DNA from: Candidatus Baltobacteraceae bacterium
GTDB taxonomy: Bacteria > Vulcanimicrobiota > Vulcanimicrobiia > Vulcanimicrobiales > Vulcanimicrobiaceae
Direction of reading: 5' to 3'
Length of the DNA: 64,000 bases
Assembly: GCA_036488875.1 (NCBI GenBank)
Contig: DASXGW010000012.1
Coordinates: 186,001-250,000, forward strand
Below are positions 33,400-63,512 of this stretch, in pieces (position 1 is the stretch's first letter; every line of letters begins with the position of its first letter). The notes under the pieces are model-generated. The model was not told where the DNA came from. It saw nothing but the letters and a program-made list of their open reading frames with translations, and did no database searches. The position numbers were made by a program, and so were the translations under genes.

Positions 33400-33473
33400 T
33401 GTAGAATAGCGGGCAATGAAAAGATACAAGCCCCCGATTCGTGCGTGAATCAAGGGCTCAAGTTGGTAGCGCC

Positions 33474-33614
33474 AACGGGAATCGAACCCGTTATCGAGAC
33501 TGCAGATTGATGCAACCTATACGGGAATTCGGTCGAATTCGGTCCTTTTTCCTTTCTATCATATGCAGATTGATGCAATCTGATGCAAACCATTGGTAGA
33601 CATTTGGGTAGACG
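33474..33614 (-). repeat. Attachment-site-like repeat, copy A
   Basis: On the minus strand the last 31 nt are a tRNA 3' end: T-arm ACGGG-TTCGATT-CCCGT, acceptor strand TGGCGCT, A, CCA (33474-33504). The 5' half of a tRNA (would begin AGCGCCA) is absent within 150 bp. The adjoining ~110 bp, with GCAGATTGATGCAA twice and GGTAGAC-atttg-GGTAGAC, is shared with copies at 37030 and 63362. Past the CCA on the minus strand, a hairpin (AGCCC..GATTC/GAATC..GGGCT, 33429-33458) resembles a terminator. Confidence 0.85.
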
Positions 33615-33636
33615 CTGCAGCAGAGGAGCCGCAAGG

Positions 33637-34170
33637 CTATCGGCTTAAGGCACTCTTCCTTCGTCTGGTCGATTTAACCGTGCGCTTGTTGGCTGGTAAT
33701 AGTGGCTCGTGAGCATTCGCTATCAGGCGCCGGTCGATCACGGTGGAATAGACAACCGAGGTGGCCGTCGGCCCGAATCGGGACAGAGCCGCAGCAACGC
33801 TTTCGAGATCACTCATCGTCGCAACCGATACCTTCACGATAAAGCAATCTTCGCCCGTGATGTGGTGGCACTCCAGAACTTCTTGAGTCGCCTCAATGAG
33901 ACGCTCAAACGGCTCGTACTTTCCCCCCGTAAAGCGCACGCGGATGAACGCTGAGATAGCACGCCCAAGCTTCGTAGGATCAACGGCAGCATGATACCCA
34001 CGAATCACCCCGTGCTCCTCGAGTCGGCGAATGCGCTCCGCAACGGCGGGTGGGGTGAGACCGACGATGCGCCCCGCTTGCGCGAGTGTCACGCGCGCAT
34101 CCTGTTGGAGATGTCTCAATAGGGCCCAATCCGTGTCATCGCAATCGAAAGTCATTTTGGATATTACCAT
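33637..34170 (-). CDS. Lrp/AsnC-family transcriptional regulator
   Basis: 177 residues from ATG 34170 (ATG 34155 also possible; the frame is open further, to 34353, through the divergent promoter). N-terminal helix-turn-helix (LLRHLQQDARVTLAQAGRIV, LTPPAVAERIRRLEEHGVIR) and C-terminal RAM effector domain (FIRVRFTGGKYEPFERLI, HHITGEDCFIVKVSV) fit Lrp/AsnC, which senses amino acids and their derivatives. A basic tail (NKRTVKSTRRRK) is extra. It is divergent from the rhodanese/ATP-grasp/decarboxylase operon and likely controls it in response to an amino acid substrate. Confidence 0.9.
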   Translation of the reverse strand: MVISKMTFDCDDTDWALLRHLQQDARVTLAQAGRIVGLTPPAVAERIRRLEEHGVIRGYHAAVDPTKLGRAISAFIRVRFTGGKYEPFERLIEATQEVLECHHITGEDCFIVKVSVATMSDLESVAAALSRFGPTATSVVYSTVIDRRLIANAHEPLLPANKRTVKSTRRRKSALSR

Positions 34171-34275
34171 CGATTCATAAGGTAGGTCCGCCGGATAAGT
34201 ATATAATACCTCTGCCATTTTGACCATAGTGCTTGTACTATGAAAGGAAAGCCCCGTTCGAAGGAAGGGATTTCG

Positions 34276-34695
34276 ATGTCCACAAGCTACTCGCCGAAAT
34301 ACAGCGCTGTCAGTGAATTTGTCCCCGTTGCGCCAGACGAAGCAATCCGGCACTTCGAGGGAAAGTTGAAGCTAGAAGTGGACCCCGCCGACGTCCATTA
34401 TGACAATGGTAAAGGTGTCAGTACATTTGTCGTTATCGATACGCGTTCTGAGGACGACTATCGGCGCGAACATATTCCCGGCGCGATAAGCCTCCCACAC
34501 CGGAAAATGGACGCGCAAACTACGAAGGACTTGCCGCGCGATCGCATCGTGGTGACCTACTGTTGGGGCACCGCATGTAATGCTTCCACAAAGGGCGCGC
34601 TTCAGCTGGCGCGATTAGGGTTTCAGGTCAAGGAAATGATTGGTGGCATCGAGGGATGGAAGAGTGACGGATACTCGACAGTTTTGGGATCGTGA
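34276..34695 (+). CDS. Rhodanese-domain protein
   Basis: 139 residues from ATG 34276, preceded by AAGGAAGGG; a 12-codon longer form from ATG 34240 lacks such a site. After ~45 residues (EAIRHFEGKLKLEVDPADVH) comes a single rhodanese domain: VIDTRSEDDYRREHIPGAIS, active loop TYCWGTACNAS with Cys at its start, and GGIEGWKSDGY. It may carry or release sulfane sulfur, or serve as a substrate-binding helper. First gene of a three-gene unit; its stop overlaps the next start as GTGA. A TATAAT at 34202-34207 lies in the AT-rich divergent promoter. Confidence 0.88.
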   Translation: MSTSYSPKYSAVSEFVPVAPDEAIRHFEGKLKLEVDPADVHYDNGKGVSTFVVIDTRSEDDYRREHIPGAISLPHRKMDAQTTKDLPRDRIVVTYCWGTACNASTKGALQLARLGFQVKEMIGGIEGWKSDGYSTVLGS

Positions 34696-35558
34696 GCGTC
34701 GCTCTGATAACGTGCCAGCGCTTCGCTAAGCTTCCCTCCGATGAACGGCTCCTCGTTGACGCGCTTGCGCAAAGAGGAGTCGCGGCGTTTCCGCGCGTGT
34801 GGAGCGATCGATCGGATGATTGGGATCACATTGAACTTGCGGTGTTGCGATCGTGCTGGGATTATCACGAGAAGCCGCGGCGATTCCGCTCGTGGGTTAA
34901 GCTAACGTCCCGCGTGACGAGAGTCTTCAACCCGCCAGAACTGATCTTATGGAACATGCACAAGGAATACTTGGCCGAACTTGCCGCTGCTGGGATTCCC
35001 ATCGTCCCGACGATACTTGTAAGAATGGGACAATCAGCCTCGGTTGACGACCTACGCCGTAAGCTACTGACGGAAGAGTTCGTCATTAAGCCGGCGGTGT
35101 CAGCCAGCGCGTCTCGTACGACTGTTATTGGACGCGGGCACGTCCCGTTTGATAGTGCGCAGCGCGACCTTGACGATCTTCTTCGTGATCAGGATGCGCT
35201 GGTACAACCGTTCTTGCGAGAAATCTACGATCTTCAGGAGCGATCGCTGATCTTCATCGATGGCGCATTCTCGCATGCGGTGAAACGACCACCGCTGTCG
35301 ACCGGCGCAGCAGGAGGTGACTCCCGCGAGTCTCTAATCGATCCCAGCGCCGAAGAAATCGCGTTGGCGAACAGGGTTCTAGCCGTCGCACCCTCCGAGA
35401 CACTCTACGCCCGCGTTGATCTGATACCACGCTACGACGGATCCTTCGCACTAGCGGAGCTGGAGGTCATTGAACCGGCACTGTACCTTGGGCACCATGC
35501 GCCGAGCGTGGCGAAGCTGGCTGATGCGATTATTTCAAAACTCGAGAACCGATCGTGA
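34692..35558 (+). CDS. ATP-grasp ligase, DcsG-like
   Basis: 288 residues, GTG start overlapping the previous stop. Layout of the glutathione-synthetase-type ATP-grasp: AVLRSCWDYHEKPRRF (the [R]S-x-WDY signature of the DcsG-like branch), NPPELILWNMHKEYLAELAA with Lys near ATP, EFVIKPAVSASASRT (ATP-lid Lys), LVQPFLREI, and metal-binding ARVDLIP and LAELEVIEPALYL. These enzymes activate a carboxylate with ATP and join it to an amine or hydroxyl; DcsG closes the cycloserine ring. Substrate here unknown; coupling to a decarboxylase suggests that an amino acid-derived amine is ligated. Confidence 0.85.
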   Translation: MSVALITCQRFAKLPSDERLLVDALAQRGVAAFPRVWSDRSDDWDHIELAVLRSCWDYHEKPRRFRSWVKLTSRVTRVFNPPELILWNMHKEYLAELAAAGIPIVPTILVRMGQSASVDDLRRKLLTEEFVIKPAVSASASRTTVIGRGHVPFDSAQRDLDDLLRDQDALVQPFLREIYDLQERSLIFIDGAFSHAVKRPPLSTGAAGGDSRESLIDPSAEEIALANRVLAVAPSETLYARVDLIPRYDGSFALAELEVIEPALYLGHHAPSVAKLADAIISKLENRS

Positions 35559-36979
35559 CGGTCCCTCATCCACTGTTTCTAGCTGACGTCGAGCGACATG
35601 AGGCGTTTCACGATGCGATCGCTACTATTGATCGTTACCTAACCAACGTCGAGAGCCTCCCCGTCGAGCGCGCCATCGATGCTTCAGAAGTCGCGCGGTT
35701 CATCGAGCGAATTAATTTCGCAGTGCCCATGAAACCGGACGAGGCGATCGCGTATGTCAACGAGGCGATGCTTCGCTTTCAAACGCACACAGGGCATCCA
35801 GGGTACTTTGGGCTATTCAATCCGGCATCCACCGCAATGGGTATCGTGGGCGAAGCGATGGTCGCGGCGTTCAACCCACAGCTCGCGGCTTGGTCTCATG
35901 CGCCGTTTGCCGTTCAGCTTGAGCAGTTCCTCATCCGGTCAATGGGCCGACGCTTCGGCGAGGAATTCAGTTATGGAGCGTTTACCTCTGGCGGGGCTGA
36001 AGCCAACTTCACCGCGACATTGTCAGCTCTCGCGAAGCGCTTCCCAACGTTCTCTTCCGCCGGAGCGCGCTCTCTGCCCGGGCAACCCATTGCCTATGCT
36101 AGTGCGGCCGCACATCATTCCATGATCAAGGTTGTCCGCGCGCTTGGCCTAGGCACCGAGGCGCTGCGTATCGTTCCTTGCGATACGTCGTATCGAATGG
36201 ACGTTGACGCACTGCGCGACGCGATCGAGTCGGATCGCCGTGCCGGTTCCTATCCGTTTTTTGTTGTCGGAACGGCCGGGGCAACTGCCACCGGAATCAT
36301 TGAACCCCTTGCCGCGATCTCGGACGTCGCTACTGACAATGGCTTGTGGTTTCACGTGGACGCGGCGTGGGGCGGCTTTGCGGCCTTCGTTCCCGAGTTC
36401 CGAAGCCTCCTCGCCGGCGCTGAATTCGCAGATTCTGTGACGTTCGATCCGCACAAGATGCTCGGGATCCCGATGGGCGCAGGTATGTTCCTCACGCGCC
36501 ACGGGAGCATTCTGGGAGAAGTCTTCTCCGTCACCACGAGCTACATGCCGGCGAGTACGTCGGATGACCAGCTCGATCCGTTTACACACTCGATGCAGTG
36601 GTCTCGGCGCTTTATCGGACTTAAGCTGTTTCTCTCATTGGCGGTCGCCGGGTGGGATGGATATGCGGAGGTTCTGCGTGACCAGGTGCGATTGGGCAAT
36701 CTCTTGCGCAAACAGCTGGTGGCCTCGAACTGGAAGCTACACAACCGTACACCGCTGCCGATCGTATGCACGACTCCAATGCTCACATCGAAAGCGCCGG
36801 CTAAGATAAGCGAGGATGTCAAGCGCCGTGGTAGATCTTGGGTGTCCTCGGTTATTCTTCCGGATGGAACACCAACCATTCGCGCCTGTATCTGTAACTA
36901 CCGGACATCGGCAGCCGACATAGAGAGGTTGATCGTCGACCTTACGGACGCCGCCTCAGAGAGTGTCAGTCAGGCTTAA
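35555..36979 (+). CDS. PLP-dependent group II decarboxylase
   Basis: 474 residues, GTG start overlapping the ATP-grasp stop (GTGA). Fold-type I group II amino acid decarboxylase: HPGYFGLFNP, AFTSGGAEANFTA, HHSMIKVVRALGLG with PLP-stacking His, WFHVDAAWGGFAAF (Asp to pyridine N) and SVTFDPHKMLGIPMGAG with Schiff-base Lys301. Relatives decarboxylate aromatic amino acids, glutamate, or 2,4-diaminobutyrate, giving an amine and CO2. The exact amino acid cannot be set. Last gene of the operon; copy B of the attachment-like repeat begins 50 bp after it. Confidence 0.92.
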   Translation: MTVPHPLFLADVERHEAFHDAIATIDRYLTNVESLPVERAIDASEVARFIERINFAVPMKPDEAIAYVNEAMLRFQTHTGHPGYFGLFNPASTAMGIVGEAMVAAFNPQLAAWSHAPFAVQLEQFLIRSMGRRFGEEFSYGAFTSGGAEANFTATLSALAKRFPTFSSAGARSLPGQPIAYASAAAHHSMIKVVRALGLGTEALRIVPCDTSYRMDVDALRDAIESDRRAGSYPFFVVGTAGATATGIIEPLAAISDVATDNGLWFHVDAAWGGFAAFVPEFRSLLAGAEFADSVTFDPHKMLGIPMGAGMFLTRHGSILGEVFSVTTSYMPASTSDDQLDPFTHSMQWSRRFIGLKLFLSLAVAGWDGYAEVLRDQVRLGNLLRKQLVASNWKLHNRTPLPIVCTTPMLTSKAPAKISEDVKRRGRSWVSSVILPDGTPTIRACICNYRTSAADIERLIVDLTDAASESVSQA

Positions 36980-37029
36980 GTAGACGTTCGCAGAGAGGTG
37001 CGCTAAAAAGCCTTAGGCTATAAGACTTT

Positions 37030-37177
37030 TGGTAGCGCCAACGGGAATCGAACCCGTTATTGCGGATGCAGATTGATGCAGCCTATACGGGAAATCGGCC
37101 GAATTCGGCCGATTTCCCATTTTTAATCATATGCGATGCAATCTGATACAAGTACTTGGTAGGCATTTGGGTAGACA
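37030..37177 (-). repeat. Attachment-site-like repeat, copy B
   Basis: Same 31-nt tRNA 3' end as copy A at 37030-37060 (minus strand), then the shared GATTGATGCA..CCTATACGGG segment, a perfect 30-bp palindrome (37089-37118, GGGAAATCGGCC centred on GAATTC) with a T-run behind it on the plus strand, and GATGCAATCTGATACAAG..GGTAGGC-atttg-GGTAGAC. Beyond CCA on the minus strand a hairpin AAAAG.CTTA/TAAG.CTTTT with a T-run (about 37003-37030) looks like a terminator different from that at copy A. Confidence 0.85.
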
Positions 37178-59423: not shown

Positions 59424-59483
59424 GCAGATTGATGCAACCTAAACGGAAACTCGGCCGAATTCGGCGTTTTTCTCGTTTTATCA
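59424..59483 (-). repeat. Partial attachment-like repeat, copy D
   Basis: GCAGATTGATGCAACCTAAACGG, then a CCGAATTCGG palindrome with T5 and CGTTTTATCAC, matches the left-centre part of copies A-C (closest to copy C). Neither tRNA 3' end nor the distal GTAGAC pair is present, although GGTAGAC occurs just before it. The rest of the 195-bp gap to 59614 has nothing else recognisable. Confidence 0.65.
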
Positions 59484-63361: not shown

Positions 63362-63512
63362 TGGTAGCGCCAACGGGAATCGAACCCGTTATTGAGATTG
63401 CAGATTGATGCAACCTATACGGGAAATCGGCGGACTTCGACCGCTTTATCGTTTTATCACATGCAGATTGATGCAATCTGATGCAAGTACTTGGTAGACA
63501 TCTGGGTAGACG
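63362..63512 (-). repeat. Attachment-site-like repeat, copy C
   Basis: Same tRNA 3' end (63362-63392, minus strand with CCA), then GCAGATTGATGCAACCTATA, CGGGAAATCGGCGG..CCGC with T-rich tail, CATGCAGATTGATGCAATCTG and GGTAGAC-atctg-GGTAGAC. The hairpin next to CCA on the minus strand (GCCCA/TGGGC then TTTT, about 63339-63358) differs from those of copies A and B. The 63189-63361 stretch contains nothing else recognisable. Confidence 0.85.

Follow-up and report, generated by a model that had tools for sequence, protein, structure and literature searches.

A rhodanese, ATP-grasp and decarboxylase operon as a likely cargo segment of a tRNA-Glu(UUC) island in a Baltobacteraceae genome

Additive flexible genomic islands, as described in work on Alteromonas (PMC4119200) and the Methylophilaceae (PMC10872708), have a tRNA gene as their target and contain repeated tRNA 3' ends, each ahead of a segment; these segments differ widely in size and bring metabolic or resistance cargo. 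In the Methylophilaceae, the repeats comprise the last 20 nucleotides (nt) of tRNA-Lys, and the segments range from 330 bp to 42 kb and from 1 to 63 coding sequences. Here we describe a comparable locus in a 64,000-nt stretch of DNA (the window) from a Candidatus Baltobacteraceae bacterium, corresponding to positions 186,001 to 250,000 of its contig DASXGW010000012.1 (C12). The locus holds a cassette of four genes, in which an Lrp/AsnC-type regulator is divergent from genes for a rhodanese, a DcsG-like ATP-grasp enzyme and a pyridoxal phosphate (PLP)-dependent decarboxylase. This cassette is a real, open operon inside an island of a known kind, and it very probably represents one segment of a serial, additive tRNA-Glu(UUC) island. 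The tRNA target and the repeated tRNA 3' ends are common to this island and to those of Alteromonas and the Methylophilaceae; unlike the latter, it involves tRNA-Glu(UUC), belongs to an Eremiobacterota/Vulcanimicrobiota-type genome and has three scars with a common arm of ~120 bases. Tycheposons, as described in PMC10872708, likewise carry cargo at a tRNA border, but they contain a tyrosine recombinase gene within the element, and no such gene was found on this contig with the Phage_integrase profile (PF00589). On balance, we consider it likely that the 3566 bases from 33463 to 37028 are a non-autonomous cargo segment of the island, and we attach to this reading a proposed enzyme chemistry that is graded separately below.

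The tRNA-Glu(UUC) repeats and the island around the cassette

The two repeats that flank the cassette, A (33463-33613) and B (37029-37176), were detected as a 93-nt and a 42-nt block with 87% and 86% identity, at spacings of 3566 and 3563 bases, respectively. Their first 29 bases match the 3' terminus of a tRNA-Glu(TTC) gene, of which the same contig carries an intact copy (C12 268770-268844, minus strand; ARAGORN), in agreement with the initial annotation, which had regarded the repeats as tRNA scars; inside the 64-kb window, ARAGORN detected no tRNA gene. The contig carries core sites at 219463 (A), 223029 (B), 249362 (C) and 253571, and their orientation is identical. Copies A, B and C share the ~120-base arm, with 83 to 88% identity to copy A, and the site at 253571 is a bare core. 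A 26-base core yielded five matches in the genome, all in one orientation, and none for the reversed control, so the repeats are not due to chance. The proposal that the cassette is one delimited unit is borne out by the tRNA 3'-end scars that border it on both sides. One piece of the arm (60 bases, 85%) also stands without a tRNA core at 59424-59483 of the window.

Table. Features of the cassette and its borders (window positions)
Feature	Position	Strand	Remarks
Scar A	33463-33615	-	29-base 3' end of tRNA-Glu(UUC), tRNA sense on minus strand; ~120-base shared arm follows on plus strand
Lrp/AsnC-type regulator	33637-34155	-	Divergent; start inferred from where the helix-turn-helix (HTH) begins
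BH2092-like rhodanese	34276-34695	+	Alternative ATG at 34240
DcsG-like ATP-grasp ligase	34692-35558	+	
Group II PLP-dependent amino acid decarboxylase, Phe343 variant	35555-36979	+	
Scar B	37029-37176	-	tRNA-Glu 3' end and arm as in scar A; bounds the segment on the right
Terminator-like 13-pair palindrome with T run	37089-37118	+	Lies in the scar B arm; might terminate the operon
Scar C	63362-63512	-	Third full copy; bounds the adjoining 26-kb segment on the right

The four-gene span takes up 3343 of the 3415 bases separating repeats A and B, so that the cassette nearly fills the interval, as had been proposed, while the exact fit to 3.5 kb claimed for it becomes a close fit to 3.4 kb. Both GTGA overlaps that were said to join the three enzyme genes are present in the sequence (34692-34695 between rhodanese and ATP-grasp, 35555-35558 between ATP-grasp and decarboxylase), as is the divergent Lrp gene. 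As open reading frames, the Lrp gene extends at most over 33637-34353 on the minus strand and the rhodanese over 34240-34695 on the plus strand. In the translated 208-residue Lrp frame (33637-34263), the Pfam HTH begins at residue 42, which makes the ATG at 34155 the probable start; the rhodanese, in turn, probably starts at the ATG at 34276, preceded by AAGGAAGGG, rather than at 34240. Terminator-like sites in the region, as a set, do not differ significantly from shuffled sequences (6 vs 3.7 +- 2.2).

From scar A to the tRNA gene, the island comprises four segments of ~3.6, 26.3, 4.2 and 15.2 kb. Pfam was applied to 14 of 28 chosen frames of the 26-kb segment and to 8 frames of the last two segments; these frames encode transporters, HTH and STAND proteins, hydrolases, beta-propellers and a reverse transcriptase, and no recombinase was found among them. 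The last, tRNA-proximal segment matches LmuC, LmuB and LmuA (LmuA over two frames) and RT-Toprim. These defense genes lie at L038:11987-18506 (C12:261987-268506), in the order Lamassu-like LmuC, LmuB and LmuA followed by the RT-Toprim type I-C match. For the cassette itself an anti-phage role was considered and dropped: PADLOC reported nothing for the Lrp, rhodanese and ATP-grasp proteins, and for the decarboxylase only weak PLP-fold matches (SspA, DndA).

The 26-base core is present with at most one mismatch in 63 of 99 genomes of the family, mostly once, and wherever ARAGORN was run and read, these single sites were the tRNA gene itself. A scar with a related arm was found in another genus (G042; 93% over 83 bases, tRNA part included). 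One further relative (L221, G142:C146) has three tRNA-Glu scars on the minus strand, at 161, 828 and 2230, the one at 161 being weaker; they delimit segments of ~0.7 and ~1.4 kb, each of which seems to contain one small gene, by eye a cupin-like and a glyoxalase-like one.

Recombinases and the mobility of the segment

The initial annotation saw in the cassette a candidate self-contained mobile module. However, contig C12 has no Phage_integrase match, serine recombinases being covered only through the Pfam scans of some frames, and none of the cassette frames matched a recombinase family in Pfam or NCBIfam. Non-autonomous cargo therefore fits better than a self-contained module. In the mechanism that we propose, a tyrosine recombinase would have placed the segment by recombining the 29-base core, and this enzyme either acted in trans or has since disappeared. 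Relatives offer a precedent for such a site: in two of them, an integrase-homologous frame ends 128 bases (L217) and 104 bases (L222) from a tRNA-Glu scar, as expected of att sites.

If the recombinase acts in trans and is still encoded in the same genome, the island units would be live cassettes rather than fossils. The arms, kept at the similarity given above and present in another genus, are in line with this, as are PF00589 matches elsewhere in the genome, which occur only on contigs C2 and C14. Yet the matching frame on C14 has just 157 residues, the tRNA-Glu core is absent at up to four mismatches from the 12 kb and 18 kb around the C2 and C14 matches, and recombinases that have been lost would leave equal-arm copies too. 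We regard live cassettes as unlikely and retain the non-autonomous cargo segment as the preferred explanation.

Several observations weigh against that preferred explanation. Among the genomes covered, one per species, none showed an empty site, so that the integration of this very segment is a presumption, and no core copies were detected in G111, the sole other genome drawn from the genus. The candidates for an integrase of the window's arm type were rejected: the scars within 130 bases of integrases in L217 and L222 have arms unlike those of the window, and in the best lead, a scar with a window-type arm in G106:C110, the integrase fragment lies 1.2 kb off in opposite orientation. The guanine-plus-cytosine content of the segment (0.563) is only slightly under that of the window (0.598), so recent transfer, when judged by composition, is not decided either way. 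Promoter-like sites are no commoner than in shuffled sequences (2 vs 2.1). Not all of the cassette genes look foreign, given the phylum-internal grouping of the ATP-grasp protein described below, and apart from their shared operon the three enzymes have nothing that connects them.

The four protein families and their relatives

All family calls made in the initial annotation were upheld by Pfam or NCBIfam matches. The Lrp frame exceeds the Pfam cut-offs for the AsnC-type HTH (53 vs 27 bits) and for AsnC_trans_reg (50.8 vs 25 bits; E value, 1.6e-13). Only three Lrp-family matches exist in the genome, and the window Lrp groups with the one on contig C8 (95/96), but the tree has just 10 rows and its branches are long; the one on C7, which gave no tblastn match, is not in this tree.

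The rhodanese matches the Rhodanese domain at 3.6e-16 (59.9 bits vs a cut-off of 22.2). It is homologous over the whole domain to BH2092 (3o3w, 3nhv) and has in common with it the active-site Cys loop TYCWGxACN (TYCWGTACN here, TYCWGPACN in BH2092). The neighbors of BH2092-like relatives differ: in 16 rhodanese loci, chosen from 30 among 108 plasmid records, the gene is accompanied by an FtrA-like regulator in eight, by a MocR-like regulator in two and by Lrp in none. These FtrA- or MocR-like genes lie upstream of the rhodanese in 10/16 loci, divergently oriented in nine and codirectional in L260, and a GNAT gene lies downstream in three. On the replicons L256, L257, L258, L261, L265, L267 and L268, the rhodanese is divergent from an FtrA-like regulator. 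At E values up to 1e-18, only one of 148 phylum genomes, the genome analyzed here, has a rhodanese match, and the rhodanese DNA had no blastn match in E. coli genomes.

The ATP-grasp frame has no Pfam match and is homologous over its full length to the D-cycloserine synthetase DcsG (PDB 6jil; residues 6-284, 1.1e-28). We take K133, E183, R241, D243, E256 and E258, all invariant in a 13-row alignment, to be the conserved catalytic ATP-grasp residues. In contrast to DcsG itself, the cassette protein reaches only half the cut-off of the NCBIfam family NF058666 (181.3 vs 360 bits; 2.2e-53) and thus does not score as a DcsG equivalog, and none of the remaining cassette genes was named as a D-cycloserine gene. 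Of 148 phylum genomes, 34 have a match to the ATP-grasp protein, this genome among them, and its tree places it in a phylum-internal group with L026, L019 and L021/L084 (98/95). From other genomes of the phylum, 29 ATP-grasp loci were fetched with up to 1.5 kb per side, and in nine of them an Lrp gene adjoins the ATP-grasp gene; these nine sit on another branch of the ATP-grasp tree. The recurring pair (L008-L013, L015, L016 and L018) consists of an Lrp-type gene close and divergent to the DcsG-like gene. Common descent of the window pair with these pairs was rejected, because the window ATP-grasp groups elsewhere and a constraint joining it with the nine Lrp-linked rows (31 rows; group picked after the first tree) gave a p-AU value (approximately unbiased test) of 0.003.

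The decarboxylase matches Pyridoxal_deC at 2.3e-59 (201.4 bits vs a cut-off of 27). With the group II PLP decarboxylases (4rit/4rlg from Sphaerobacter, 4obu, and the GAD, CSAD, DABA and aromatic enzymes) it shares the fold family and the residues H187, D269 and K301, presumably the stacking His, the Asp and the PLP Lys. They are invariant in a 13-row alignment, as are C405 and C445, and Y330 is kept. The protein differs from the known enzymes in belonging to a clade of its own, with 13 rows (99/98) from several phyla at 39-49% identity to it, and in having Phe at position 343 (codon TTT) where all 12 clade relatives have Tyr. Among 149 phylum genomes, only G134 holds a match better than ~1e-58 (47%). 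This scarcity, like that of the rhodanese, fits an acquired gene.

In plant aromatic decarboxylases, a loop Tyr-to-Phe change converts the enzyme into an aldehyde synthase, according to PMC11308512. The column of position 343 holds Trp349 in 4obu and Gly in 4rit, its equivalence to the catalytic loop Tyr being unsure, and the common decarboxylases of the phylum have their loop Tyr two columns further on, so the plant rule is not simply transferable to F343. With Phe343, taken as a lead only, one can be less sure that the product is a plain amine. A second active-site oddity, Ala185, was set aside: the clade relatives have Glu in 11 of 12 cases and Gln in one, yet 4rit also has Ala. The other clade decarboxylase of the phylum (L073, G134:C215) has neighbors that appear by eye to be nonribosomal peptide synthetase (NRPS)-like, aminotransferase-like and flavin-oxygenase-like, perhaps a siderophore cluster, and the clade members at L204 and L210 have in their vicinity frames that by eye resemble aldehyde dehydrogenases, a setting that would accord with the metabolism of amines or aldehydes.

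Recurrence of the gene set and the proposed chemistry

The initial annotation proposed looking in other genomes for the triple, with Lrp and tRNA scars, and named rare co-occurrence of the three genes as counter-evidence to the pathway that it proposed. No second instance was found in any sample. Neither rhodanese nor decarboxylase lies beside the ATP-grasp gene in the best 80 of at least 553 ATP-grasp relatives (tblastn, 1e-3; up to 8 kb per side, with 8 loci below 1.5 kb on one side) or in the 29 phylum loci; neither rhodanese nor ATP-grasp accompanies the decarboxylase at 12 clade loci (from the 149 phylum genomes, from two plasmids and from three other phyla sampled with 377, 398 and 396 genomes); and neither ATP-grasp nor decarboxylase occurs at the 16 rhodanese loci. 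Looser associations do recur, namely Lrp beside ATP-grasp in the nine relatives of the separate branch and the FtrA- or MocR-like regulator near the rhodanese type in 10/16 loci; one locus among the best 80, an Eremiobacterota contig, has Lrp within the stretch compared. Judged from the listing and from the starts of abstracts, the literature held no related paper on an operon of rhodanese, ATP-grasp and decarboxylase, and no paper was found on Lrp with a divergently transcribed rhodanese. By comparison of gene neighborhoods, the set seems to have been put together within this lineage and not to have come down as a known pathway.

These results bear on the idea of a conserved biosynthetic module that moves between species as a unit, in which the decarboxylase would supply an amine, the ATP-grasp enzyme would ligate it and the rhodanese would provide sulfur. 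The overlapping genes and their shared divergent regulator are in keeping with such a module, and each family has members in or beside secondary metabolism: DcsG is one example, the decarboxylase relative in G134 adjoins the NRPS-like and aminotransferase-like frames, and a Xenorhabdus plasmid carries a rhodanese relative next to genes annotated as pvdA and ectB. Given the lack of a second instance in the four samples, we find this idea improbable.

A stronger contender is that three enzymes of separate function share promoter and regulator because they became trapped in one segment, the rhodanese serving sulfur or stress chemistry, the decarboxylase amino acid use or acid stress, and the ATP-grasp enzyme some ligation. 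The three families are apart in all loci examined, and their histories differ, the rhodanese being absent from the remaining phylum sample, the ATP-grasp phylum-internal and the decarboxylase clade spread over several phyla. However, the two 4-base overlaps and the divergent regulator argue for selection on joint expression, and Lrp next to this ATP-grasp family recurs. We give this alternative serious weight, somewhat short of an even chance.

Within the preferred cargo-segment reading, the enzymes could also act together. An amino acid would be the signal on which the Lrp-type regulator switches the operon. The PLP enzyme would turn an amino acid into an amine by decarboxylation or, should Phe343 work like the Phe of plant aldehyde synthases, into an aldehyde by oxidative decarboxylation; the ATP-grasp enzyme would couple a carboxylate and an amine, spending ATP; and the rhodanese would carry sulfane sulfur for this chemistry or guard against it. 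Such amine- or aldehyde-plus-ligation chemistry is tentative, and we rather doubt it.

One may go further and suppose that lineages of the family use the tRNA-Glu 3' end plus a short shared arm as a cassette site, on which integrase-free units with one or a few metabolic genes are captured and stacked in trans, much like cassettes in integrons, and that the operon is a freshly assembled amino acid pathway with an aldehyde-forming decarboxylase variant. This is a highly improbable extension. At the locus as a whole, two features deserve a test, the Phe343 change and the presence of integrase-free segments that have an arm in common. The locus offers a case of a little-studied lineage gaining enzyme operons at a tRNA site, and its decarboxylase is a testable enzyme with a possible reaction-switching residue. 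If integrase-free units do move in trans, they would amount to an integron-like gene-capture system built on a tRNA.

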